A DNA stretch of 64,000 bases from Methanohalophilus levihalophilus (lineage in GTDB: Archaea; Halobacteriota; Methanosarcinia; Methanosarcinales; Methanosarcinaceae). Below are positions 17,059 to 47,186 of this stretch, in pieces (positions within the stretch are counted from its first letter, which is position 1; every line of letters begins with the position of its first letter). The stretch is taken from contig NZ_JAGGLK010000001.1 in assembly GCF_017874375.1 (NCBI RefSeq), forward strand, positions 598,150-662,149, written 5' to 3'. Under the pieces are notes generated by a model. That model did no database searches. It was not told where the DNA came from and saw only the letters and a list, made by a program, of their open reading frames with translations. The translations under genes were made by a program, and so were the position numbers.

Positions 17059-19467
17059 TCAATCCCCCATACCTTTTTCTGTTTCCAGCACTTTGAGACG
17101 TATCTTCAAAACCGAGTCCGGATTCAAGGAAATGGAATCGATGCTTTCTTTTACAAGAAACTCAGCAAATTCGGGAAAATCACTTGGAGCCTGTCCACAA
17201 AGACCACTGTGCTTATTGTTTCTCATTGACCCTTTAATTGCCATGGATACCATCGCCTTCACAGCTTCATCCCTTTCGTCAAAGGTTGAAGCCAAAATTT
17301 CAGAATCCCGGTCAACCCCAAGTGTAAGTTGTGTAAGATCATTTGAACCAATTGAAAACCCGTCAAAGTATTTACTAAATTCATCAATCAAAATAACATT
17401 ACTGGGTATTTCACACATCATATAGATTTGGAGATCATTAACACCCCTCTCCAGACCATGGTTTTCCATTTCTCCAATAACTTTCCTGGCTTCTTCTACA
17501 CGCCGGCAGAAAGGTATCATCAGAATAAGATTGGTGAGCCCCATCTCATCCCTTACCTTTTTCATTGCCCTGCATTCAAGAGCAAATCCTTCCCTGTATC
17601 TTTCATCGTAATATCTGGAGGCACCTCTGAAACCCAGCATTGGATTACTCTCTTTGATCTCAAAATCCTCTCCCCCGATGAGGGTTGCATATTCATTGGA
17701 TTTGAAATCACTCATACGCACCACTACCGGTTTTGGATAAAATGCTGCAGCAATTGTAGCGACACCTTCTGCAAGCCTCTCTACAAAATATTCACTTTTA
17801 TTGGAATAACCATATGTTAATTGCCCGATTGTTTCAATTACATCCTTATCCGTAACCTTTTCCATATGTATCAAAGCCATCGGATGAACTTTGATGTAAC
17901 TGCTAATGATGAACTCAAGCCTTGCAAGCCCGATCCCATCATTGGGTATTTTTGACAGTGAGAAAGCCTCTTCCGGATTTCCCAGATTCATCATAATCTC
18001 CGTTCTGGGTTTGCCCACGTCTTTTAGTTCCGTAATTTCTTTGTGGAAAGAAAGCTCACCTTCATAGACTTTTCCCGTATCCCCTTCGGCACAGCTTACA
18101 GTAACATCCATACCCTAACTCAGCTTTTCTGTGCCGTTATCTGCACCCACCACTGCCGGGATATCAAGTTCACGGCTGACGATAGCCGCATGACATGTCC
18201 GTCCTCCCTTGTTGGTAATGATGGCTGCTGCTTTTTTCATAACAGGTTCCCAGTCAGGGGTAGTGGTATCTGCTACCAGCACTTCTCCGGATTTAAAGGA
18301 AGATAAGCCTGAAATGTCCTTAATGACATGTACTTTGCCAGAAGCAATTTTGTCACCCACACTCCGACCGGTAACCAGTACTTTTCCTTTTTCATCCATG
18401 AAATAGGTTTCAAGTGTATCCTTCCTTTTCTGGGACTGCACAGTCTCCGGCCTTGCCTGGACAATGAATAATTCACCTGTATCCCCATCTTTCGCCCATT
18501 CGATATCCATAGGCATATTTTTATTGGCTTTGCCTGAATAGTGCTCCTCTATGATAACAGCATACCTGGCAAGTTGAAGGATTTCATCATCGCTTATGCA
18601 AAATTGTTTTCTGTCGGACTCAGGCACTTCAACATTACGTGTCAGCACTCTGGAATCCCCACGACCATAGATCATTTTGATTTCCTTGCTGCCAACCTTT
18701 TTGCGGATAATAGGCTTGTAGCCTTCCTTAAGGGTTGGTTTGAATACATAAAACTCATCCGGATTTACCAGCCCCTGAACTACATTTTCGCCCAAACCAT
18801 ATGCTCCGGTAATAAAGACTACATCTTCAAAACCTGTTTCCGTATCGATAGTGAATAAAACCCCGCTTGAAGCAAGATCAGAACGCACCATTTTCATGAT
18901 ACCAATAGATAATCCCACCTCAAAATGATCGAAATTGTTGTTTATCCTGTAAGAAATTGCCCTGTCAGTGAACAATGAAGCAAAACATCGGCTACAGGCA
19001 TCTCTCAGGGAGTGGTAACCATGAATGTTAAGATAGGTTTCCTGTTGCCCTGCAAAGGAAGCTGTCGGCAAATCTTCTGCTGTGGCTGAACTGCGCACAG
19101 CGACATCTGCATCAACACCATACTGTTCGCACAATTTATCATACGCATCTTTAATCTCATCCCATAAGTCGTCTGGAATGGAGGCATCCAGTATCATGTG
19201 CCTCGCTTTGTTGCCCACTTCAGGGAGATTGCTGAGATTTGCCGAATCCAGTTCATCAAGAGTTGCTTTTAATTCTTCAACAATATCTGCTGAATCAAGT
19301 ACATGCCAATAGGCCTTGGCAGTGATGGCAAATCCGTTTGGAATCTTGATATCTTTGTCTGTAAGTTCCCGGTACATCTCCCCAAGAGAGGCATTTTTGC
19401 CCCCTACAAGAGGAACATCATCGATAGTTATCTCTTCAAACCAACGTATATACTTGCTATTGCTCAT
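17059..19467 (-). CDS. ppsA: Phosphoenolpyruvate synthase with an internal in-frame TAG
   Basis: Read straight through one TAG (18117-18115), the frame gives 802 residues, the normal PpsA length. Residues 1-450 carry the ATP-grasp domain (VGGKNASLGEMY, VRSSATAEDLPTASFAGQQ) and the phosphohistidine domain with His426 in GGRTCHAAIVSRE. Residues 452-802 carry the PEP/pyruvate TIM barrel (GFRGASRY, DGFSIGSNDLTQLTLG, CGQAPSD). The TAG replaces a variable residue in the segment that reads KDG in E. coli PpsA, 25 residues after His426, and the frame is unbroken either side. The enzyme makes PEP from pyruvate and ATP for gluconeogenesis. Two separate proteins, or a fresh nonsense mutation, are the alternatives; readthrough as pyrrolysine is favoured. 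Confidence 0.87.
18115..18117 (-). other. Internal amber codon of ppsA (candidate pyrrolysine 451)
   Basis: TAG in frame with both halves of ppsA. The next codons are GGT ATG GAT, so a restart at that ATG would begin inside the conserved G-x-x-VTVSCAEGD segment. No ribosome binding site precedes it. Confidence 0.75.
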
Positions 19468-37806: not shown

Positions 37807-37839
37807 TCACTTTATGTGTTCAACCATTGATTTGAACAT
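37807..37839 (-). pseudogene. Displaced original 3' end of purQ
   Basis: Read leftward this encodes MFKSMVEHIK then TGA, matching the C-terminus of purQ 8.7 kb away (MFKSMVEHC, stop). It is the chromosomal end of purQ cut off when the element integrated; the present purQ uses the copy brought by the element. Confidence 0.8.
37817..37839. repeat. attL: 23-bp integration site
   Basis: Identical to 46507-46529. Internally it has 7-bp inverted arms (TGTTCAA / TTGAACA) around an 8-bp spacer CCATTGAT, the usual core layout for a tyrosine recombinase: two monomer sites and an overlap region. Confidence 0.85.
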
Positions 37840-37855
37840 CCTTGGGCTGGTGCTT

Positions 37856-37916
37856 GGGCCTGCCGACGCACGAAACATGAATCGGCAGACCGATTAAAGT
37901 AAATTTTGGCAGGCCC
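37856..37916. repeat. Nested inverted repeats next to attL
   Basis: GGGCCTGCC at 37856-37864 can pair with GGCAGGCCC at 37908-37916, while CTGCCGA at 37860-37866 can pair with TCGGCAG at 37882-37888. The two stems share an arm and exclude each other. GACGCACGA also occurs twice (37865-37873, 37924-37932). These may be arm-type recombinase/excisionase sites or an RNA switch; TATA boxes at about 37963 and 37994 follow. Confidence 0.45.
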
Positions 37917-38071
37917 TCGCGTTGACGCACGATGCACCGGCAAAGATAGATTGTTTCCAGTTCTATATATAAGCTTCCGCTAATTTTCCAAAGTTATATA
38001 TATTGATAATTATATCGCTTTTTTTAGAGAGGTTTTGACGGACCTCTACTAGTTGAAGGAAAGTACGAAAC

Positions 38072-38359
38072 ATGACAGAAGAAAACAAACAAACGGATAG
38101 CGTAAGCTTTGTAACGGCACGTGAAAAGCTCCTGAAAGCAATTCTTGACAATAGTAGTGAGACTCTTCTTTCCATGATAAAGGAACACGGAAAGGACAGT
38201 CAAAAGTATGTAATGACTGATCATATTTTCCAGGTCATTAAAAAGGAATATGAGTTCCTGAGAGAGAAGAGGAAGCTCCGGGAATTCTGCCATGAAAATG
38301 GCCTGAGTCCTCTTGTCATCCTCGCACATGTTGAAGAACTGCAGGAGCTGAAGGTATGA
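38072..38359 (+). CDS. Element protein, 95 residues, unknown
   Basis: First gene of the element. It is helical and charged (AREKLLKAILDNSSETLLSM, then KKEYEFLREKRKLREFCHENG), ending in a helix (PLVILAHVEELQELKV). It could be a small regulator or excisionase-like protein, but no family is recognised. A 6-bp-arm hairpin (38028-38047) lies just upstream. It overlaps the next gene by 4 bp. Confidence 0.65.
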   Translation: MTEENKQTDSVSFVTAREKLLKAILDNSSETLLSMIKEHGKDSQKYVMTDHIFQVIKKEYEFLREKRKLREFCHENGLSPLVILAHVEELQELKV

Positions 38360-38511
38360 GCAAAGTACCTCCCACATTTCTTGAGTATATTGCAGAATGC
38401 GCTCAGGAATAGCTCGGTGCACTGGATTATGAAATCGTGAATGTACAGGAACAAGTCGACGCTGGTGACCGTGTCCTGAGTGTCGATCTCCGGATCCAGT
38501 TGGAGATGTGA
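38356..38511 (+). CDS. Element protein, 51 codons, with an internal TAG
   Basis: The ATG overlaps the previous stop (ATGA). The frame contains TAG at 38410-38412 (codon 19) and then continues to TGA at 38509-38511, two bases before the next ATG. Read through, it is MSKVPPTFLEYIAECAQE, the TAG residue, then LGALDYEIVNVQEQVDAG and a short tail. The second part has no start with a binding site. Continuous coupling with both neighbours argues for a single gene with UAG as sense. A decayed gene is the alternative. Confidence 0.65.
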
Positions 38512-38513
38512 GC

Positions 38514-38633
38514 ATGTGGATCGAATTCCTGCCGGAATATATGGAAGTGGAGGAGCTGCCCCCTCTCACCATAGATCAGGCACTTCTGAGAATTGCGGAA
38601 AAGGTGAACGAGGCCACGAGGGGATCCCTGTGA
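38514..38633 (+). CDS. Element protein, 39 residues, unknown
   Basis: ATG 38514, two bases after the preceding stop; its TGA overlaps the next ATG by one base. Acidic and helical (YMEVEELPPLTIDQALLRIAEKV). No family recognised; support comes from tight gene packing. Confidence 0.5.
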   Translation: MWIEFLPEYMEVEELPPLTIDQALLRIAEKVNEATRGSL

Positions 38634-38848
38634 TGAGGAAGTGGACTGACGAGGAAACGGATACTTTGAAAGAGCTATATCAAAGCTCTCCGCTCAAGGT
38701 TTCGGAAATCGGGGAACAACTTTCCAGGACAAAGTACAGCATCTACGGAAAGGCCAGATCCTTGCAGATTCGCAGGTCTTCAATGAGGTTAAGGCGCCGT
38801 ACGTACCAGAGCTCAAAGCTCACTGATTTTTCTGCAGGAGTGGAATAA
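38633..38848 (+). CDS. SANT/Myb-like or HTH DNA-binding protein
   Basis: 71 residues from ATG 38633. RKWTDEETDTLKELYQSSP, then VSEIGEQLSRTKYSIYGKA and SLQIRR, is the pattern of Myb/SANT-like or GcrA-like DNA-binding domains (Trp-rich first helix, recognition helix R-T-x-x-S-I). A basic tail follows. It overlaps the next gene start by one base. Likely a transcription regulator of the element. Confidence 0.65.
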   Translation: MRKWTDEETDTLKELYQSSPLKVSEIGEQLSRTKYSIYGKARSLQIRRSSMRLRRRTYQSSKLTDFSAGVE

Positions 38849-39060
38849 TGGCCCTGCAGCTTACCATGGAAGAAGCTGAGAGGTGGGCCGAGCTTCGGAA
38901 CTTCAGCGCAAGAAGTTCCAGGAAAACCTCTCCTAAAAGAAAGGCAAAAGCACTCAAACTATACCATGTTTTCAACGGTAAAAAAAGGCGAGTGTGTGAG
39001 GAAATGCACATGAGTGTCGTTACTCTCAACAACATCCTCAAGGAAGAGGGGATCCAGTGA
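38848..39060 (+). CDS. Small HTH protein
   Basis: 70 residues. A basic N-terminal half precedes KALKLYHVFNGKKRRVCEEMHMSVVTLNNILKEEG, resembling a helix-turn-helix of a terminase-small-subunit or resolvase type. It overlaps the next gene by 4 bp (GTGA-type), within the early operon. Confidence 0.55.
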   Translation: MALQLTMEEAERWAELRNFSARSSRKTSPKRKAKALKLYHVFNGKKRRVCEEMHMSVVTLNNILKEEGIQ

Positions 39061-39701
39061 CTGAGCTCAGAGCCTGCATTACTACTCCTACTACTGTGCA
39101 AACAAACAGGATCCGGGGATATTCCCTGGATATCCTTTCTGAATTACAGAACACCGTCTTAACCGGCCCCGAAATTGCAGGAAAAATAGATCGAGGATAT
39201 GCGTACACTAAAGTCTATCTTTATCGCTTGTACAATTATGGATGCATAGATCGGATCGAAAGATGGAGCTGGAAAATCACTCCGCTTGGCACTGAAATAC
39301 TCTCTACTAATACTAATACTAAACTTGGTAACAGAAGAGTAACAGAAAAGGAACAGAAGAGTAACAGAAGAGTAACAGAAGAGTCCAATAAATCTTACAC
39401 AACCGATTCCTCAAGACAACTCAATCTTTCCCTCTATACCTCCGATCCGGATGTCACAGAGCCAGAGAGAGTAGTAGTACTGGCACTGGCCAGTCACTAT
39501 GAGAAAACTGGCGAGAAATACCGGTACTTCAGAGACATGTATGACTTCTGCGAACAGATCGAGATCTCAGCCGTAGGTATCAATGAACTTCTTGCCAAGC
39601 TCAAGCAGGAAGGAGTGATCTACATTCGGCAGGAGAAAATGCTTGGAATGTGGAAAATAGGTTTAAAAGTTAACTTTGTAGAACGCTTAACAATGTGTTG
39701 A
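39057..39701 (+). CDS. Winged-helix protein containing iteron-like repeats; candidate replication initiator
   Basis: 214 residues, GTG-type start overlapping the previous stop. An N-terminal winged helix (LSELQNTVLTGPEIAGKIDRGYAYTKVYLYRL) and a C-terminal helix-turn-helix (EQIEISAVGINELLAKLKQEG) are joined by a polar linker (about residues 85-125) whose DNA consists of tandem 11-bp repeats. Initiators such as lambda O have this layout, with the origin inside the initiator gene. That role is inference; a plain transcription factor is possible. Confidence 0.55.
   Translation: MTELRACITTPTTVQTNRIRGYSLDILSELQNTVLTGPEIAGKIDRGYAYTKVYLYRLYNYGCIDRIERWSWKITPLGTEILSTNTNTKLGNRRVTEKEQKSNRRVTEESNKSYTTDSSRQLNLSLYTSDPDVTEPERVVVLALASHYEKTGEKYRYFRDMYDFCEQIEISAVGINELLAKLKQEGVIYIRQEKMLGMWKIGLKVNFVERLTMC
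39328..39382 (+). repeat. Five tandem ~11-bp repeats (iteron-like)
   Basis: Units of GTAACAGAAGA, two of them slightly altered, run head to tail. They encode a repeated NRRVTE peptide and are preceded by ACTAAT repeats at about 39306-39321. They may be origin iterons or simply linker expansion. Confidence 0.6.
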
Positions 39702-39719
39702 GGGGAACGGGGTTTTAAC

Positions 39720-40745
39720 ATGTATTTGTACTACGATGAATTCTTAGAAGAATGTGCAGCGAGGGATCTTGTTCCTCAAACCATCGCAACGTATCGAAGC
39801 AATGTAGGCCTTTTTCTCCTGCACTTAACGCAGAATGGAAAAGATCCTCTGGATATCCAGATGAGCGATTTGCGTTCATTCCTGGTATATCTCAAAAATA
39901 TGGATTATACCGTCGGGCGCCAGAGACGCAAGGGAGTTGCTCCGGCAACCCTCAAGGCCTATTTTACAGCGATATCCTCTTTCTATGACTTCCTTGTGTG
40001 GGAAAAATACATAGACTCAAACCCTGTGCCGATGTTCCGGAAAAGATACCTCAAGATCAAACTGCAGAGAGGAGGAGAAAATAGCAGGCAAGTTGTCAGC
40101 ATTCCCGTGATGATGGAACTCCTGGAACGTGCTCTTCTTGAGAAAGATATTGTAGCCTGGGCCTACATGTTCTTTTCAGCCAAAACAGGAATGCGTAAAG
40201 GAGAGCTCCTTGCAATGAATCTCGCAGATCTGGATCTTGAGAAAATGGAATTCATAGTTCCTGGAAAAGCCAAAAGGACAAACCGTCGGGGATTCCTGGA
40301 TGCTGAAACTGCCTATGTACTGCATCAATATCTGGAATGGAGAGAACCACGGGCAAGGGTTGACGATGCACTCTGGATATCTCCTGAAGGTTTCCGGATG
40401 AGCCGAAACGGACCTTATGACCTGGTCACTTATTACGCACAGCTTATTGGCATACATAATCCAGACGGGCCACTTATCCAGAAGTTCACTCCGCACTGTT
40501 TCAGGCATTTCTTTACAACTCACTTGAGACGTGCAGGCATGTCCCGCGAGTTCCGGATGGAGCTCCGGGGAGATGTCACCACAAAAGCCATGGATGACTA
40601 TGACGACATCGAAACCGAAGAGCTTAGGCAGGCATACCTGCAGTATATTCCAAAGCTCTTGAGAATCGATTCAAAGCAGAGCACATTGATACCATTTGCC
40701 CAGGAGGTGAGCTATGTCAATCCAGTTGGAGCTCTCGGAAGATGA
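39720..40745 (+). CDS. Tyrosine recombinase / integrase (XerD-like)
   Basis: 341 residues. An N-terminal SAM-like DNA-binding domain (about 1-100) is followed by the catalytic domain: Arg in GMRKGELLAMNLADLDLE, HxxR box PHCFRHFFTTHLR, and a probable nucleophile Tyr in KAMDDYDDIE. It presumably recombines the TGTTCAA-N8-TTGAACA core in the 3' end of purQ. Its 3' end overlaps a 51-residue gene by 32 bp. Confidence 0.9.
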   Translation: MYLYYDEFLEECAARDLVPQTIATYRSNVGLFLLHLTQNGKDPLDIQMSDLRSFLVYLKNMDYTVGRQRRKGVAPATLKAYFTAISSFYDFLVWEKYIDSNPVPMFRKRYLKIKLQRGGENSRQVVSIPVMMELLERALLEKDIVAWAYMFFSAKTGMRKGELLAMNLADLDLEKMEFIVPGKAKRTNRRGFLDAETAYVLHQYLEWREPRARVDDALWISPEGFRMSRNGPYDLVTYYAQLIGIHNPDGPLIQKFTPHCFRHFFTTHLRRAGMSREFRMELRGDVTTKAMDDYDDIETEELRQAYLQYIPKLLRIDSKQSTLIPFAQEVSYVNPVGALGR

Positions 40746-40869
40746 AGCCAGAAAATTGCATCTGATTCTGCTAGGTACAAGCTACGGTTTCTTACTTGCA
40801 AGACGTGACCATTATTTCCAATTTGTAAACAGAATTGCCAAACGTCTTGATCAGAAATTATCCCCCTGA
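40714..40869 (+). CDS. Element protein, 51 residues, unknown
   Basis: ATG 40714 follows CAGGAGGTGAG, one of the strongest ribosome binding sites in the element, inside the integrase gene in another frame. The product is basic and helical (EDEARKLHLILLGTSYGFLL, then FVNRIAKRLDQKLSP). It could be an excisionase or regulator; no family recognised. Confidence 0.6.
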   Translation: MSIQLELSEDEARKLHLILLGTSYGFLLARRDHYFQFVNRIAKRLDQKLSP

Positions 40870-40927
40870 CAGGATCCTATCAATCTGATAGTTTCTGATG
40901 AAAATTGATATAAAATTTTTTACCTTT

Positions 40928-40959
40928 GTGTTCCGACCTCAATCGGAACACCGTTTTTT
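40928..40959 (+). terminator. Hairpin with T-run after the integrase block
   Basis: GTGTTCCGA and TCGGAACAC form a 9-bp stem with a 6-base loop, followed by CCG and six T. It separates the early block from the next transcription unit. Confidence 0.7.
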
Positions 40960-40963
40960 ACAA

Positions 40964-40996
40964 TGTTATTTTTGGGGTTAATTATCGTTATTTTCG
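40964..40996. repeat. Element-specific promoter repeat, copy A
   Basis: Shares GTTATTTTTGGGGTTAA and TATCGTTATTTTCG with copies at 42057 and 45423. Each copy stands just upstream of a gene block in the element. Confidence 0.65.
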
Positions 40997-41034
40997 ATAT
41001 CTACAAAAGTACAAGTCATCAATTTGACTCTTGT

Positions 41035-41286
41035 ATGGTACTTGCACTAGACTTGCAGAAACAAATTCTTGACTTGTACCTGGATGGAAAGAAAGCATAC
41101 GCTATTTCCCAGGAACTTAAAATCAATTACAGGACTGCGAAAAAGTACACTGATCGCCTTGACCTTGTAATGGCCGAGATCAGGACAGCTGTTGTATGTT
41201 GTATTTTCGATGAAATCAGAAAAAACCCTGAAAATTTCGTTGATTATTACATGCAAGTGCAAGACATGCAGGAGGAAAATACATGA
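41035..41286 (+). CDS. HTH protein of the element
   Basis: 83 residues from ATG 41035; a longer start at 40963 would run through promoter repeat copy A. LQKQILDLYLDGKKAYAISQELKINYRTAKKYTDRLD is a helix-turn-helix of the resolvase/Hin type, and the C-terminal half is helical. It overlaps the next gene by 4 bp. Confidence 0.65.
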   Translation: MVLALDLQKQILDLYLDGKKAYAISQELKINYRTAKKYTDRLDLVMAEIRTAVVCCIFDEIRKNPENFVDYYMQVQDMQEENT

Positions 41287-41600
41287 AACAATTACCTGCC
41301 ACAACTGAACAGGTTGAAAGGCCCAATGCTTCCACTGCAATGGTAGAAGACATCAAGAATAATTTTGGCATTGATGTGGGGGAAATTGCCGGATCCATTG
41401 CCAGGGATTACGTGAAAGAGAACGTCTTTGGAAGGAAGAGCACCACGCCTGCAGGCCGGTCCAAGTTTGCAAAGGCCTTGTTTGGGATATCCGAGTTCTT
41501 CAGGTCTGTCTGGTGGGTTCCTGCAGCGGCCTATGCTGCCATGATGCTGGTTGTGATTGCTGTCAGGCTTCTGGCTAATATTGCAGGTGTTGAAGTATGA
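41283..41600 (+). CDS. Element membrane protein, 105 residues
   Basis: Polar N-terminal 75 residues (including a DVGEIAGSIARDYVKENVFG helix) precede one strong membrane segment (WWVPAAAYAAMMLVVIAVRL). Its stop overlaps the start of the first of three tiny membrane-peptide genes. Likely a virion-membrane or host-interaction protein; no family recognised. Confidence 0.6.
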   Translation: MKQLPATTEQVERPNASTAMVEDIKNNFGIDVGEIAGSIARDYVKENVFGRKSTTPAGRSKFAKALFGISEFFRSVWWVPAAAYAAMMLVVIAVRLLANIAGVEV

Positions 41601-41680
41601 CCTTCCATGAAGCAAAAGTATAGCTCTCCGTGATGACACTCTGTTTCCTGGGAGGAATTCTTGTGGGGTTGAGTCTATGA
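41597..41680 (+). CDS. Tiny membrane peptide gene with internal TAG (A)
   Basis: ATG overlaps the previous stop as ATGA. The frame is MTFHEAKV, TAG (41621-41623), then LSVMTLCFLGGILVGLSL and TGA, which again overlaps the next ATG as ATGA. Only readthrough of the TAG keeps the coupling and joins the polar start to the hydrophobic helix (27 residues). Confidence 0.55.
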
Positions 41681-41757
41681 ATCGAATGGGGCTAATGCTG
41701 ATTGTCGCATTTATTTGCGGAATGTAGACAGGGATAATGCTGGGAGTATGTCTATGA
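41677..41757 (+). CDS. Tiny membrane peptide gene with internal TAG (B)
   Basis: Starts on an ATGA overlap. MNRMGLMLIVAFICGM, TAG (41725-41727), TGIMLGVCL, then TGA overlapping the next ATG. Read through it is a 26-residue single hydrophobic helix of membrane-spanning length; stopping at TAG would leave 16 residues and break the overlap chain. Confidence 0.55.
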
Positions 41758-41837
41758 GCGATGATGAGGCGGATTTACTGTACTACTTCATTGTGGTGCT
41801 TGTTATCGTTTTGTTTTTGATTGGAGGGAAGCTATGA
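41754..41837 (+). CDS. Tiny membrane peptide gene (C)
   Basis: 27 residues: acidic MSDDEADLL followed by a hydrophobic helix (YYFIVVLVIVLFLIGG) and KL. ATGA overlaps on both sides. Third member of the tandem run of single-helix peptides, without a TAG. Possibly virion-membrane, holin-like or small regulatory peptides. Confidence 0.55.
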   Translation: MSDDEADLLYYFIVVLVIVLFLIGGKL

Positions 41838-42043
41838 AGAAAGAAAAAGTATGCCTGACAGAAACTCAGATGGAGCATATAATTGACGCTGCCAGGAATG
41901 AGCCGGGGGCATGTCCCAAGGCCAAGGATTTTGTCGAGAGCTTCAGGCCTACAAAAGAAAGCAATATTGTCCTGCAGGCAGTTGACAGGCATCTCGAAAA
42001 GAAAGCAAAAAAGCTAATCAGAGACTTCCAACGCTGGTTTTAA
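41834..42043 (+). CDS. Element protein, 69 residues, unknown
   Basis: Begins on an ATGA overlap with the tiny peptide gene and has GGAGGGAAG in front. Charged and helical (LTETQMEHIIDAARNEPG, then RHLEKKAKKLIRDFQRWF). Two cysteines. Last gene of this unit; a palindrome and promoter repeat copy B follow. Confidence 0.55.
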   Translation: MKKEKVCLTETQMEHIIDAARNEPGACPKAKDFVESFRPTKESNIVLQAVDRHLEKKAKKLIRDFQRWF

Positions 42044-42086
42044 TGTTGTTCAACATTGTTATTGGGGTTAAATATCATTATTTTTG
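42042..42086. promoter_or_regulatory. Palindrome plus promoter repeat, copy B
   Basis: AATGTTG-TT-CAACATT (42042-42057) is a perfect 7-2-7 inverted repeat directly followed by repeat copy B (GTTATTGGGGTTAAATATC and onward to 42086), 65 bp before the next gene. Together they look like the control region of the virion-type operon. Confidence 0.6.
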
Positions 42087-42151
42087 TTAAGTTTTTATTC
42101 TGATTTTCCCCTCTCGAAATTGAGACCTGGTAAAATCCAGGGAGGAATTTC

Positions 42152-42277
42152 ATGGCAAAAAAAGGCATGAATAAAGGATTACGCAAAGCGCAGTGCGTCC
42201 GGAAAAAGAAAGCACAGGGTAAATCCCTGGCGCAAGCCCGGAAGATCTGCAAGGTCAAGGGGGCCAAGAAAAGATGA
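42152..42277 (+). CDS. Very basic 41-residue protein
   Basis: ATG 42152 after GGGAGGAAT. About 40% Lys/Arg (MAKKGMNKGLRKAQ, then KAQGKSLAQARKI, ending KGAKKR), with two cysteines. A DNA-condensing virion protein is plausible, as in PM2-like and other small viruses, but this is inference. Overlaps the next gene as ATGA. Confidence 0.6.
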   Translation: MAKKGMNKGLRKAQCVRKKKAQGKSLAQARKICKVKGAKKR

Positions 42278-42396
42278 ATCAGAGTGAAATGGAAGTCAAG
42301 ATCCTTGCCTTAGAGGAAAGGGTTGCAGCACTCGAAGGAAAAGCAGACGAACCCGTCACAGTCGATGTAGACAAGATCCTCGAGGAGGGTAAGTAA
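42274..42396 (+). CDS. Short coiled-coil protein, 40 residues
   Basis: MNQSEMEVKILALEERVAAL shows a heptad pattern of a short coiled coil, followed by an acidic tail. ATGA overlap upstream, TAATG overlap downstream. Possibly an oligomerisation or scaffold peptide of the virion block. Confidence 0.55.
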   Translation: MNQSEMEVKILALEERVAALEGKADEPVTVDVDKILEEGK

Positions 42397-42785
42397 TGGC
42401 ACGCAGACCAATCGGAATAAGTGCAAAATGGCTGAAATACTTCCCACAGCTTGCCGCTGTCTATGCATTTTATGAGTATTATGCGGCTGTTGGAGTGGAA
42501 GGTATCAAGGCAGACCTGGAAGCTCTCACATTTGAAGGAATCAAAGCACAGGCACAGAATATTCTTTCAGGGCTTGCAGCATTCCTCATCGGTGATGTAA
42601 TCGCTTCAAGAGTGAAAGACAAGTACATCAAAACAATTGTAAGGACAATTGCCTACTACGTAGGTGCAAAGCAGATTGCAGGAGCACTTGACGCAGGATC
42701 TACCGTATCCCGTCAGGTAGAAGCAACAAAGCCGGCAGTAACACACGGAGGCCCGGCAATATCAAACGCTATCAGGGGGTACTAA
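42396..42785 (+). CDS. Membrane-associated virion-block protein, 129 residues
   Basis: Hydrophobic/amphipathic segments near residues 12-30 (YFPQLAAVYAFYEYYAAVG), 50-65 (LSGLAAFLIGDVIAS) and 77-95 lie in a basic protein, with a flexible C-terminus. It sits 4 bp before the 262-residue protein, as internal-membrane proteins often precede capsid genes in membrane-containing viruses. No family recognised. Confidence 0.6.
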   Translation: MARRPIGISAKWLKYFPQLAAVYAFYEYYAAVGVEGIKADLEALTFEGIKAQAQNILSGLAAFLIGDVIASRVKDKYIKTIVRTIAYYVGAKQIAGALDAGSTVSRQVEATKPAVTHGGPAISNAIRGY

Positions 42786-42789
42786 GTAA

Positions 42790-43578
42790 ATGGGATTCAC
42801 TACAATAGCATTCTACGAATCAAGAGCAGGCACAACCGCACTCAGCAATGTTGCAGGCCTTGAAGATACGCATGTTGCCGTAAATGGTGACAACATCACC
42901 GTACCGCCAAGATGGAACCAGCTCATAGCTGCATGGGGTGGAATGAGCAATGCAACAGATGTACTTGTAGCAGCTCGTCTTTCCTCACCATCCTTGCGTA
43001 AGACATCCCTGGTGGACCTTGCAAACCTTGAGGCAATCGCTGCAGGTGGAGCACTCCAGCCAAGCTCTCCAACTCCTATTGACATCTTCCTGCAGAGAGC
43101 TGTACAGCTCGTTTCAGGGGAATTCCTGAACTATCTGCAGGCATCAGATGGTACTACAGCTGCTAACCTCTGTACTGCTGTTGTGTTCCTGGGAGATGGA
43201 AATTATGGCAATCCGTATGCTGGGAGGCCTATCCAGACTGTCAGGGCTACTTCATCCACAACCCTTACAGCAAACAAATGGTCTGCATGCACACTGACAC
43301 TTGATCAGCAGCTGGAGTCCGGAAGTTATGCAATCGTGGGAATGAGAGCTCAGTCTGCAGGCGCAAAGGCTGCCAGGCTTATTATGCAGGAAACTCCTGC
43401 ACGTCCTGGCTGTATTGCCTATGACAGCAACGCTGACATTGAACACCCAATGTTCCGCAACGGAAACCTTGGTGTATGGGGTACTTTCGTGCACACTGCA
43501 ATCCCTCAGGTTGAATTCCTGAGTTTGTCTGCAGACACCAGCGAGACTGTATTCCTGGACATTGTGAAGATAGGCTAA
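42790..43578 (+). CDS. Putative major virion (capsid) protein, 262 residues
   Basis: No membrane segment or cofactor motif. The sequence is rich in Ser/Thr/Ala/Gly with alternating strand-like stretches (TLTANKWSACTLTLD, SYAIVGMRAQS, QVEFLSLSADTSETVFLDIV), typical of beta-sandwich capsid or spike proteins. At 262 residues it is close to the smallest double jelly-roll capsid proteins. It is the largest protein in the virion-type block and has an unusually regular, highly-expressed codon pattern. Capsid role is inference; structure prediction would decide it. Confidence 0.5.
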   Translation: MGFTTIAFYESRAGTTALSNVAGLEDTHVAVNGDNITVPPRWNQLIAAWGGMSNATDVLVAARLSSPSLRKTSLVDLANLEAIAAGGALQPSSPTPIDIFLQRAVQLVSGEFLNYLQASDGTTAANLCTAVVFLGDGNYGNPYAGRPIQTVRATSSTTLTANKWSACTLTLDQQLESGSYAIVGMRAQSAGAKAARLIMQETPARPGCIAYDSNADIEHPMFRNGNLGVWGTFVHTAIPQVEFLSLSADTSETVFLDIVKIG

Positions 43579-43611
43579 GCCTATCTTTTTTCCTTTTCCG
43601 GAGGCAAAGCC

Positions 43612-43938
43612 ATGGGGAAGAAACCAATCGTGTGGAGTCGTCCGGATTCCTCTGGGAAACGGACGGACATCACCTCTGAAAGGACAAATTTGTCCAGGAA
43701 ACAAAAGGAAGCACTGGCCAACGGCGGAAGTGTCAAAAGGAAACAGAAAACAGAGGACACTGCTCCTGTAACTTCCGGTCCAGCTTCAAGCTCCGGAAGC
43801 TCCGGCAAAGAGTATGTTTTCGAATTCTCAAGGCCTATCAGCTCACGGGCTGCAAAGTATGCAGGCAAGCTGGCGAAGCTCCTTGGAGGGAAACAGGCCT
43901 ACATTGAGGACCAGACAAAGCTAGTGGTGGTGATGTAA
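43612..43938 (+). CDS. Virion-block protein with linker and basic N-terminus, 108 residues
   Basis: A Lys/Arg- and Ser-rich N-terminal 65 residues, ending in a SSSGSSG linker, precede a small folded domain (YVFEFSRPISSRAAKYAGKLAKLLGG). TAA is directly followed by the next ATG. No family recognised. Confidence 0.55.
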   Translation: MGKKPIVWSRPDSSGKRTDITSERTNLSRKQKEALANGGSVKRKQKTEDTAPVTSGPASSSGSSGKEYVFEFSRPISSRAAKYAGKLAKLLGGKQAYIEDQTKLVVVM

Positions 43939-44256
43939 ATGGTTGCACCTGTTGTCATTGGAGCCGGCGCAATGGCCTTAGTGAGGCTCATAGCATGGCT
44001 CTCATCAGCCGTTCTCATCACATCCTATGTCAGGGATATCCTGACAAAGGAACCCGGAGAAGACGTTGAAATAAGCCGTGATGATGTAGTCGAGAAAATC
44101 CTTGATAATCCGGATTTAACTGAGGAACAAAAGGAAAAAGCTCTCCTGGAATACCTGAAGATCTCAGGCTCCGGAGGCGGTGGCCTTGAGGAATATGCAA
44201 AATACATTCCAGTAGCCGTTGCTGGATTTGTGGCCATCTCGATTTTTAGGAGGTAA
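43939..44256 (+). CDS. Membrane protein of the virion block, 105 residues
   Basis: Two hydrophobic segments: residues about 3-30 (VVIGAGAMALVRLIAWLSSA) and 88-103 (YIPVAVAGFVAISIF), separated by an acidic region (REDVVEKILDNPDLTEEQKEKALLEYL-type) and a GSGGGG linker. Probably a virion-membrane or pore-forming protein. Confidence 0.55.
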   Translation: MVAPVVIGAGAMALVRLIAWLSSAVLITSYVRDILTKEPGEDVEISRDDVVEKILDNPDLTEEQKEKALLEYLKISGSGGGGLEEYAKYIPVAVAGFVAISIFRR

Positions 44257-44260
44257 AGAT

Positions 44261-44425
44261 ATGCTAGATGCTGAATTCTGGTTAAGGGTTGCACAGATAC
44301 TCGGTGTGCCTGTGGTGGTTGCTGCGTATTTCATGTATCGGGATTACAAGTTCAATCAGAAACTGGTTGAAACACTGACAAAAATCAGCACAACGCTGGA
44401 GCTTGTTCATAAGAAGGAGAACTGA
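44261..44425 (+). CDS. Small single-helix protein, holin-like
   Basis: 54 residues, ATG 44261 after TTAGGAGGTAAAG. One N-terminal membrane helix (WLRVAQILGVPVVVAAYFMY) and a charged coiled tail (RDYKFNQKLVETLTKISTTL) recall BhlA-type holins and small phage membrane proteins. The role is a guess. Confidence 0.5.
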   Translation: MLDAEFWLRVAQILGVPVVVAAYFMYRDYKFNQKLVETLTKISTTLELVHKKEN

Positions 44426-44427
44426 TC

Positions 44428-44709
44428 ATGGTATACAAACCACGAGCATTCAATGTAACAACCGATCCGGAAATGGCTGTAAACCCGGATCCTGATCGTG
44501 ACGTTGTCGTCATCACGAACCTGTCCGGGGCTACAATCTACTGGGGCGTGGATCCGGAGCTCAGCACTGCCAACGGTGCGCCTATCTTCAATAATGGAAG
44601 GGCTGAGTTTTCCCGGGAGAATGGAAGGGATCCCAGGATTGCCAGGTATCTGGTAATAGGCTCTGGCTCCGGAGACGTCAGGATCGATGAAGAAAGCACA
44701 GGAGAATGA
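44428..44709 (+). CDS. Small beta-rich virion-block protein, 93 residues
   Basis: Strand-like pattern with Asp/Gly/Asn turns (PDRDVVVITNLSGATIYWG, then RYLVIGSGSGDVRIDEES), as in small virion decoration or baseplate-like proteins. Overlaps the next gene as ATGA. Confidence 0.5.
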   Translation: MVYKPRAFNVTTDPEMAVNPDPDRDVVVITNLSGATIYWGVDPELSTANGAPIFNNGRAEFSRENGRDPRIARYLVIGSGSGDVRIDEESTGE

Positions 44710-45167
44710 TTATGGGAACATATTCAGATCCTGCATTGATTCTGCCTGGAAGTGTTGACACTACCGGACTTGCTGATGATGCAGTTACAACTGCAAAAAT
44801 AATAAATGATGCAGTGACAGCTGCCAAAATTGACACTCTGACAGAGGCATTAATTGATGCTGCAATGGGTGGAGATGTCCCGGTGATCTCCTCCGATTCC
44901 TTTGTTGGAAACAATACTCAGAATCGTGCTATTCCGCATGGTCTTGGTCGAACTCCAAAAATGGTACTAATCCGGGCGCAGGACAGAGGGTGGAATCAGG
45001 TACAGCTAAATGGTGGGGCTCGAATACATTATCAAGATACAGTTAACCAAAGCGTTCGCAGTGTTACCGCACCAGATTCAACTAATTTCTATGTTGGTGA
45101 TGGTGTAGACTATGCCATATCTTGTAACTCATCTTCCCATACTTGGGAATGGATAGCAATTGGGTGA
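44706..45167 (+). CDS. Spike/fibre-like protein
   Basis: 153 residues. N-terminal repeats DAVTTAKIINDAVTAAKID are common in phage tail-fibre and receptor-binding proteins, where they form trimeric shafts. The C-terminal beta-rich domain (HGLGRTPKMVLIRAQD, then FYVGDGVDYAISCNSS) also resembles fibre tips. It is probably the host-recognition protein of the element. Confidence 0.65.
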   Translation: MIMGTYSDPALILPGSVDTTGLADDAVTTAKIINDAVTAAKIDTLTEALIDAAMGGDVPVISSDSFVGNNTQNRAIPHGLGRTPKMVLIRAQDRGWNQVQLNGGARIHYQDTVNQSVRSVTAPDSTNFYVGDGVDYAISCNSSSHTWEWIAIG

Positions 45168-45173
45168 TTTTAA

Positions 45174-45392
45174 ATGAAGTACTGGAGAAAACCAGACGGG
45201 ACATGTGGAACTTACGATGATGACGGCTTTGTCCCTGATTCAGAGGAAGTTGACCAGGCTACTTATGATGCCTGGGTAGCAGCTCAGCCAGTTCCGGAAC
45301 CTGAGCCAGACCTGAAGGTTGAGTACAAAAAGCTCACAGATGACAATGCCAGAATCAAATTCATTGCTAAGAAGCTTGGATTTGATGACTGA
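45174..45392 (+). CDS. Small protein after the fibre gene, 72 residues
   Basis: Acidic, proline-containing (EPEPDLKVEYKKLTDD) with an aromatic N-terminus (YWRKPDGTCGTYDDDG). Position after a fibre gene recalls fibre-assembly or accessory tip proteins of phages. No family assigned. Confidence 0.5.
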   Translation: MKYWRKPDGTCGTYDDDGFVPDSEEVDQATYDAWVAAQPVPEPEPDLKVEYKKLTDDNARIKFIAKKLGFDD

Positions 45393-45415
45393 AAAGGTAT
45401 ACCTTTCTGCAGATG

Positions 45416-45456
45416 GGAAATATCGTTATTTTTAGGGTTAAATAATGATATTTCCG
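45416..45456. promoter_or_regulatory. 16-bp-arm palindrome containing promoter repeat copy C
   Basis: GGAAATATCGTTATTT (45416-45431) and AAATAATGATATTTCC (45440-45455) form an inverted repeat with one mismatch around TTAGGGTT. The right part is copy C of the element repeat. It lies 35 bp before the AbrB-like gene, as an autoregulatory operator would. A TTGTATACAA palindrome follows at about 45472. Confidence 0.65.
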
Positions 45457-45490
45457 AATGTTTTTTTATTGTTGTATACAATGTTGTTGC

Positions 45491-45661
45491 ATGCCTATTT
45501 TACAGCAGGGATCGGATGGTAAATTCACGGTCACAGTACCAAAGTCTTTTGTCGTTGCGAAGAACTGGAAAAAAGGTGACAAAATCGGTTTTTCAATCGT
45601 TGATGAAATAAACAGGCCACAGCCTGGAGATATCTACATCCGGAGAAATGCCAGCCGGTAA
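45491..45661 (+). CDS. AbrB/SpoVT-like DNA-binding protein
   Basis: 56 residues from ATG 45491. KFTVTVPKSFVVAKNWKKGDKIGFSIVD is the swapped-hairpin AbrB pattern (strand, PK-hinge, helix, GDK turn, strand). It is a candidate repressor or switch protein of the element acting on the three promoter repeats. It overlaps the resolvase gene by 14 bp. Confidence 0.7.
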   Translation: MPILQQGSDGKFTVTVPKSFVVAKNWKKGDKIGFSIVDEINRPQPGDIYIRRNASR

Positions 45662-46154
45662 AAGTACGGTTGTGCAACCAGGAATACACAACCCTGGTAA
45701 AGTTGCCTATGCCAGGGTTTCTGCAGATCACCAGAACCTGGACTCTCAGCTTGACGCTCTGGTTTCTGCAGGTTTCCGGAAAAATGAGATCCTTGTAGAT
45801 GTCGAGAGCGGAACACATGACGGCAGGAAGGCCTATCAGGACCTGTGTGAGCTCATCAGAAAAGGCAATATCTCGGAAGTCTGGGTATATCGTATTGATC
45901 GCCTGGGAAGAAATCACTATGAACTTGTTTCTTTTTTGAAGCTCCTTGAAGATTCTGGATGCGAACTTATCAGCCTGTGTGAACCGTTCGTGAAAGAGTG
46001 GAGATCTTTCAGTTGGGCATTCCGTGCAACCTGGGAAGCACTCGGTGATGCACGCTATGAGCTCATGAGATTGAAGGAACGACAGAAGGCAGGCATTACT
46101 GCAGCAAAAGGAAGGGGGAAACATCTTGGAAGACCAAGGAAAAAAAAGTCATAA
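45648..46154 (+). CDS. Serine recombinase (resolvase/invertase family)
   Basis: 168 residues. AYARVSADHQNLDSQLDAL carries the nucleophilic Ser, with VYRIDRLGRN and the catalytic arginines following; a short C-terminal HTH-like tail ends GRGKHLGRPRKKK. The domain is resolvase-sized, so it probably resolves multimers or inverts DNA, separate from the tyrosine integrase. A second recombinase on so small an element is notable. Confidence 0.85.
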   Translation: MPAGKSTVVQPGIHNPGKVAYARVSADHQNLDSQLDALVSAGFRKNEILVDVESGTHDGRKAYQDLCELIRKGNISEVWVYRIDRLGRNHYELVSFLKLLEDSGCELISLCEPFVKEWRSFSWAFRATWEALGDARYELMRLKERQKAGITAAKGRGKHLGRPRKKKS

Positions 46155-46159
46155 AATAG

Positions 46160-46360
46160 TCATAAAAAAGAACCTTGCCTCCAGCTAGGCACAAATCCAT
46201 GAGGACACATACCTATCATATCAGCTTCATTGAAATCTGGCTCGTCATGTGATTCTGATACAAAGGAACAGTTTCTTACAGCACATTTTGTACATTTCCA
46301 AATTTCCATACAATAACCTATCCCGGATTCTTTAAAAGCGTTACTTTCCTTTTTGTACAC
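46160..46360 (-). CDS. Small cysteine-rich protein
   Basis: 66 residues, or 49 if it starts at the internal Met before EIWKCTKCAVRNCSF. Cys pairs (CTKC, a later CPHG) suggest a zinc site. It is the only leftward gene of the element. Function unknown. Confidence 0.45.
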   Translation of the reverse strand: MYKKESNAFKESGIGYCMEIWKCTKCAVRNCSFVSESHDEPDFNEADMIGMCPHGFVPSWRQGSFL

Positions 46361-46499
46361 CTTGCAACTGATACTGATTATATCCCCAGCTGAGCTGGTC
46401 CTGGAGAAAGGCCTTTCTTTGAAACTAACCTAAAAAGGAAAAAAGGAGGTTTGGTGTTGGTGGTGGAGTGACAATAGGATGCCGCACCACCCAAGGATG

Positions 46500-47186
46500 T
46501 CAGCAATGTTCAACCATTGATTTGAACATTGCAAGGCCATCTGCAGACCCGAGGATGTCTTCAGAAGCACGCTCAGGGTGTGGCATCAAACCCACTACAT
46601 TCCCTTCGGAATTGCTTATTCCCGCAATGTTGTTTCGGGAACCGTTTGGATTTGCTTCCCCTGTAGCATTCCCTTTTTCATCGACATATCGAAAAGCAAC
46701 CTGATTATTCTCTTCGAGATTTTCCAGCCCTAAGTCATTGATGTAATAATTGCCATCTTTGTGAGCAATCGGAATACGGACAATCTGCCCTTCCTTAAAA
46801 CCGGAAGTAAAGGGAGTATTAGTATTTTCAACCCTGAGATATGTCCATTCACATCTGAATTTTGGATAGCGGTTGGTAGCAAGCGCACCGTCAAGAAGAC
46901 CTGATTCAGTTAGTATCTGGAAACCATTGCAAATTCCAAGTATTGGTTTTCCGTCTTCGGCCATTCTGCGAACGGAATCCATTATTGGAGTTCTGGAAGC
47001 AATAGCCCCTGAACGCAGGTAATCGCCATAGGAGAAACCTCCTGGAATTACTGCTCCTTCATAGTCACTGAGGTCCGCATCCTTATACCATACAAGATTG
47101 GCATCTGCACCCACTACATCTTTCAATACATGCAGTACATCAAGGTCGCAATTACTTCCACCAAACTGCACGATTGCGATGCTCAT
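46500..47186 (-). CDS. purQ: Phosphoribosylformylglycinamidine synthase, glutaminase subunit
   Basis: 228 residues. Class I glutamine amidotransferase: VIPGGFSYGDYLRSG, the nucleophile Cys in ILGICNGFQIL and the C-terminal GLMPHPERA with His and Glu. It supplies ammonia to PurL for purine synthesis. Its last codons come from the integrated element: the C-terminus is now VEHC instead of the ancestral VEHIK. It overlaps purS by 4 bp. Confidence 0.95.
   Translation of the reverse strand: MSIAIVQFGGSNCDLDVLHVLKDVVGADANLVWYKDADLSDYEGAVIPGGFSYGDYLRSGAIASRTPIMDSVRRMAEDGKPILGICNGFQILTESGLLDGALATNRYPKFRCEWTYLRVENTNTPFTSGFKEGQIVRIPIAHKDGNYYINDLGLENLEENNQVAFRYVDEKGNATGEANPNGSRNNIAGISNSEGNVVGLMPHPERASEDILGSADGLAMFKSMVEHC
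46507..46529. repeat. attR: 23-bp integration site
   Basis: Second copy of the direct repeat. It forms the last coding bases of the current purQ (FKSMVEH). The 7-8-7 core palindrome is identical to attL. Confidence 0.85.

Follow-up and report, generated by a model that had tools for sequence, protein, structure and literature searches.

Pyrrolysine decoding in the Methanosarcinaceae is represented by MtmB, MtbB and MttB, and archaea that decode TAG as pyrrolysine throughout the genome are also known. The locus described here shares with MtmB, MtbB and MttB the host family, a complete pylTSBCD set and the presence of genes with in-frame TAG. However, it differs from them in that the genes that carry TAG are micro-genes of an integrated virus-like element, not methylamine methyltransferases, and in that TAG does not fall on any known catalytic site. 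As in the archaea with genome-wide TAG reassignment, TAG is depleted as a terminator and is read through in many unrelated genes; the difference from those archaea is that a mobile element appears to follow the same usage here. What is new is the place of TAG use, whereas the decoding mechanism, pyrrolysine, is already known.

A further point of comparison is Methanosarcina spherical virus (MetSV), which has 22 ORFs in 10.6 kb, many of them short and unknown (PMC10342651). MetSV resembles the present element in its small size, its host family and its many short ORFs of unknown function. It differs in its linear form, its terminal inverted repeats and its type B DNA polymerase.

At the center of the locus lie three micro-genes, B, C and D, of which B and C each contain one in-frame TAG. 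We propose, with a probability of roughly 0.7, that B and C are best explained as being read through TAG to yield pyrrolysine-containing membrane micropeptides.

The element and its coupled micro-genes

The micro-gene run is carried by an integrated virus-like element of 8.7 kb that occupies positions 37817-46529 of the window, the 64-kb stretch of DNA that was analyzed as a whole (Table 1). The element is bracketed by a perfect direct repeat, and in four genus relatives rnhB directly adjoins purQ with the site empty. The boundaries are firm because of this empty site, together with the repeat. The genus-mate G002 carries no such element at purQ, and the neighborhood there differs. The features expected of a temperate element, namely an integrase, flanking att repeats and an empty site, are present. 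A search for capsid and packaging functions returned the tail-fibre-like match and a weak holin-like match (E 0.089) and left the 262-aa protein unmatched; gene content suggests that the element is a provirus. The 262-aa protein, a putative main structural protein, is among the most conserved of the element. Searches of Pfam, PHROGs and solved structures gave no hit for it, and its AlphaFold model is a low-quality prediction (pLDDT 37). The 262-aa, 129-aa and 93-aa proteins have no tblastn match in a phage collection that may not include MetSV. None of the listed element genes ends in TAG.

Table 1. Features of the integrated element, in window coordinates (O, residue at TAG; L004, the relative element)
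Feature	Position	Strand	Description
Left att copy	37817..37839	+	TGTTCAACCATTGATTTGAACAT; perfect 23-bp direct repeat with 46507-46529
95-aa gene	38072..38359	+	ATGA-coupled to gene 38356..38511
Third TAG-containing gene	38356..38511	+	51 codons, TAG 38410-38412 (codon 19); MSKVPPTFLEYIAECAQE-O-LGALDYEIVNVQEQVDAGDRVLSVDLRIQLEM
Tyrosine integrase	39720..40745	+	Phage_integrase 2.8e-15; PHROG integrase 2.9e-32
Helix-turn-helix-like gene (weak match)	40963..41286	+	ATGA-coupled to gene A
Gene A	41283..41600	+	105 aa; hydrophobic segment at C-terminus; 45% identity to L004:8786-9079
Micro-gene B	41597..41680	+	27 codons, TAG at 41621-41623; MTFHEAKV-O-LSVMTLCFLGGILVGLSL
Micro-gene C	41677..41757	+	26 codons, TAG at 41725-41727; MNRMGLMLIVAFICGM-O-TGIMLGVCL; partly similar to L004 micro-genes
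Micro-gene D	41754..41837	+	27 codons, without TAG; MSDDEADLLYYFIVVLVIVLFLIGGKL
Gene E	41834..42043	+	69 aa; 58% identity to L004:9228-9443
129-aa conserved protein	42396..42785	+	hydrophobic stretches; 69% identity to L004
262-aa protein	42790..43578	+	large module protein, highly conserved; 80% identity to L004
Tail-fibre-like protein	44706..45167	+	PHROG tail fiber 7.5e-06
Serine resolvase	45648..46154	+	PF00239 1.2e-24
Right att copy	46507..46529	+	inside purQ 3' end (purQ 46500-47186, - strand)

A first-pass annotation of the locus had described five consecutive genes joined by four exact ATGA overlaps. Its frames and coordinates stand, as do the positions of the single in-frame TAG in each of B and C, but the junctions number five rather than four. 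The additional ATGA, at 41283, joins the helix-turn-helix-like gene to gene A, and six successive genes are thus coupled. Within this run, B, C and D would be genes of single-pass membrane micropeptides placed head to tail, and their 4-nt start/stop overlaps could allow a ribosome that ends one micro-gene to initiate the next. B is preceded by AGGTG at normal spacing, and D and E carry their own motifs, GGAG and GGAGG, respectively. B, C and D all end in CTATGA (41675, 41752 and 41832), as does a micro-gene of the relative element (L004:9223). The ending common to the three may hint at an origin by duplication or at a preferred coupling sequence; protein similarity among B, C and D is weak.

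How often would such an arrangement arise by chance? Chains of at least three ATGA-linked frames of 20-60 codons, with TAG counted as sense, were sought on both strands of 464 kb of host DNA, and the run from A to E was the only one found. In simulated sequence, 0.6 chains arose per Mb of each strand when the host composition was used and 2.4 when the local composition was used; chains with two TAG frames arose at 0.4. When the stop of A and the start of E were fixed and the span between them was filled at random, ~0.5% of the fillings chained exactly from A to E, and ~0.04% did so when each link had to span 20 codons or more (p ~4e-4). The earlier view that a chance origin is unlikely is borne out by the uniqueness of the chain in 464 kb and by A-to-E p values of ~4e-4 to 5e-3, which stand before a discount for selection that they require because the run was singled out by eye within 64 kb of sequence.

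The predicted products are each hydrophobic, as had been annotated, with peak 15-residue hydropathies of 2.17 (B), 2.25 (C) and 3.23 (D) that exceed those of composition-matched frames (p = 0.02, 0.02 and 0.002, respectively). Codon usage gives no support for reading B, C or D as genes. C (-0.129) and B (-0.002) score lower for codon usage than every other element gene, and synonymous-codon scores are low for C and D too, in tests that are weakened by the short length and membrane composition of these frames. The TAG density of B and C together, 2 in 53 codons, is far higher than that of host genes.

The best evidence for TAG as a sense codon in the element itself comes from a third TAG-containing gene, at 38356-38511. 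This gene starts on an ATGA with AGGAG upstream and ends 2 nt short of the start of the next gene. Its codon score is 0.154 overall and 0.214 for the 32 codons after TAG, compared with a gene mean of 0.127. A protein search with this gene in 200 genomes returned only the self-match.

TAG usage in the host

The host has a genome of 2.1 Mb and belongs to the same family as the Methanosarcinaceae metagenome-assembled genome (MAG) that holds the relative element. It encodes PylS and a tRNA-Pyl with the anticodon CUA, beside which lie genes that we take, from operon position and sequence, to be pylB, pylC and pylD; a search with the Pfam PylC-like_N profile gave no match. Among host ORFs of at least 100 codons in 1.2 Mb, TAG ends 36 of 1080 (3.3%), and the median continuation of the frame past the terminator is 70 codons after TAG versus 24 after TAA or TGA. 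Five Pfam domains in host ORFs span TAG (integrase, HD, D12 methyltransferase, GNAT-type acetyltransferase and Methyltransf_25). Given that so few ORFs end in TAG and that the frames of many such ORFs extend past it within one conserved domain, TAG is largely a sense codon in the host. Within the window, ppsA (17059-19467, - strand) contains an in-frame TAG at codon 451, where six relatives have Thr. In two genus relatives (G001 and G005), ppsA is split into pieces with TGA.

Two host genes, for the D12 DNA methyltransferase and for a further tyrosine integrase (C2:460127-460730, C1:272571-273000), are interrupted by TAG ahead of their catalytic motifs. Read-through thus extends to gene types that other mobile elements commonly carry.

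TAG in the host is not exclusively sense, given pylB and the short continuations of several further TAG-ended ORFs. The pylB gene (host C2:321243-322298, - strand) seemingly ends in TAG directly before the start of pylC, and read-through would add ~39 residues and overlap pylC; this is possibly a self-regulating arrangement.

The first-pass proposal that TAG is sense is supported at two levels: strongly in the host, by the complete pylTSBCD set, the rarity of TAG as a terminator and Pfam domains that extend across TAG, and also in the element, by the tests of chance and by a third, independent frame that is interrupted by TAG, coupled through ATGA and gene-like in its codon usage.

The relative element and the reading of TAG

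The sole relative element that was found, L004, lies on contig JAUWQD010000003.1 of the Methanosarcinaceae MAG CSMAG_2493 and has syntenic genes for the integrase, A, E, the 129-aa, 262-aa and 93-aa proteins and the fibre-like protein. Whereas the present element places three micro-genes, two of them with TAG, between A and E, L004 has in this slot one hydrophobic membrane micro-gene of 50 codons that is TAG-free and ATGA-coupled at both ends. Elsewhere in L004 (L004:6190-6631), further short genes form a second ATGA-coupled run, one of them a membrane micro-gene of 30 codons. Because ATGA-coupled membrane micro-genes occur in L004 too, they seem to be a habit of these elements. The host of L004 ends 54 of 336 ORFs (16%) in TAG, with short continuations, which indicates that TAG is an ordinary stop there despite the presence of pylS. 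A TAG-free slot where the host treats TAG as a stop fits a confinement of TAG micro-genes to the other host, a suggestive point drawn from two elements. The first-pass annotation had proposed that related elements be searched for the same run, with frames conserved across TAG. The search yielded one relative with a single, TAG-free micro-gene, and the similarity that spans TAG is weak: C aligns with the L004:6348 micro-gene as GM-O-TG / GS-I-TG (p 0.003) and with the L004:9076 micro-gene as GM-O-TG / GI-L-TG (p 0.13), both being short alignments among seven comparisons.

In the reading that we favor, the locus would be an operon segment of a temperate virus-like element that sits at the purQ 3' end of a pyrrolysine-decoding methanogen. 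The tRNA-Pyl(CUA) would decode TAG in this host, mostly as a sense codon, and the element, adapted to the host code, would tolerate TAG in B, C and gene 38356, so that the product of each would be one pyrrolysine-containing peptide. We infer that translation of B and C continues past TAG, that pyrrolysine is the residue inserted there and that the peptides are components of the membrane or of a virion envelope. If B and C are made in this way, a mobile element would have pyrrolysine in very small membrane proteins, a setting remote from the methylamine enzymes in which this residue was discovered, and the locus would constitute a natural test of TAG as a true sense codon in such archaea. Standard gene callers treat TAG as a stop and, in such genomes and the viruses associated with them, would overlook genes or cut them short. 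The idea can also be raised that an altered host code limits the hosts that an element can use.

A more far-reaching proposal is that the element is fitted to the 62-sense-codon code of its host and so depends on pyrrolysine for its membrane micropeptides and for an early gene. We regard this proposal as doubtful. If it were true, the element would be fully expressed only in pyrrolysine-decoding cells, and the TAGs in the coupled run would tie element expression to the pyrrolysine supply.

Does TAG instead terminate B and C? Termination would leave leader-like peptides of 8 and 16 codons and a 15-codon peptide from the internal ATG at 41633, with D and E starting at their own ribosome-binding sites and the TAG-crossing overlaps being partly coincidence or the remnants of decayed micro-genes. 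The first-pass claim that both overlaps vanish when TAG is a stop was too strong, since the 15-codon frame from ATG 41633 also terminates in the ATGA where C starts, so that a link to C persists, a point in favor of termination. This ATG, however, has no Shine-Dalgarno-like sequence upstream, unlike the start of B, and the chain from A to E is absent from the observed sequence when TAG is counted as a stop. The GGAG of D and the GGAGG of E would permit independent starts, gene-like codon usage is absent from B and C, and L004 manages with one TAG-free micro-gene, all of which agree with termination. Nonetheless, TAG is sense in many host genes and apparently in gene 38356 of the element, and we consider termination in B and C unlikely.

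Read-through of B and C might alternatively be conditional. Scarce charged tRNA-Pyl would cause translation to stop in B and C and reduce the coupled starts downstream, and plentiful pyrrolysine, as during growth on methylamines, would allow the whole run to be expressed. Pyrrolysine insertion has been modeled as a competition between Pyl-tRNA and the release factor for which a cis element is not required (PMC9499178; PMC8211752), and the meaning of UAG depends on the growth substrate in Acetohalobium (PMC8211752). Such a gate is in line with both observations, with the tight coupling of the run and with the lack of special RNA structure 3' of the TAGs, where PYLIS-like stem-loops are no stronger than in shuffled sequence. 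It is nevertheless the least probable of these readings, because ribosome-binding motifs precede D and E individually, the occurrence of TAG in unrelated host genes argues for constitutive reading, and L004 has no TAG in the corresponding slot.

Search for further relatives

Relatives of the element were also sought in the genome_contigs collection and at the class and phylum levels, and none was found in viral contigs, phages, plasmids or the phylum sample. A weak gene-A match in genome G022 (L040) was rejected as spurious, as it falls in an apparently ordinary host gene region. Another match (L041) proved to be a decayed gene-A-like fragment that adjoins L004 and is accompanied by a second integrase (L004:15454-19144). 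This integrase and the fragment are perhaps the remains of another such element.
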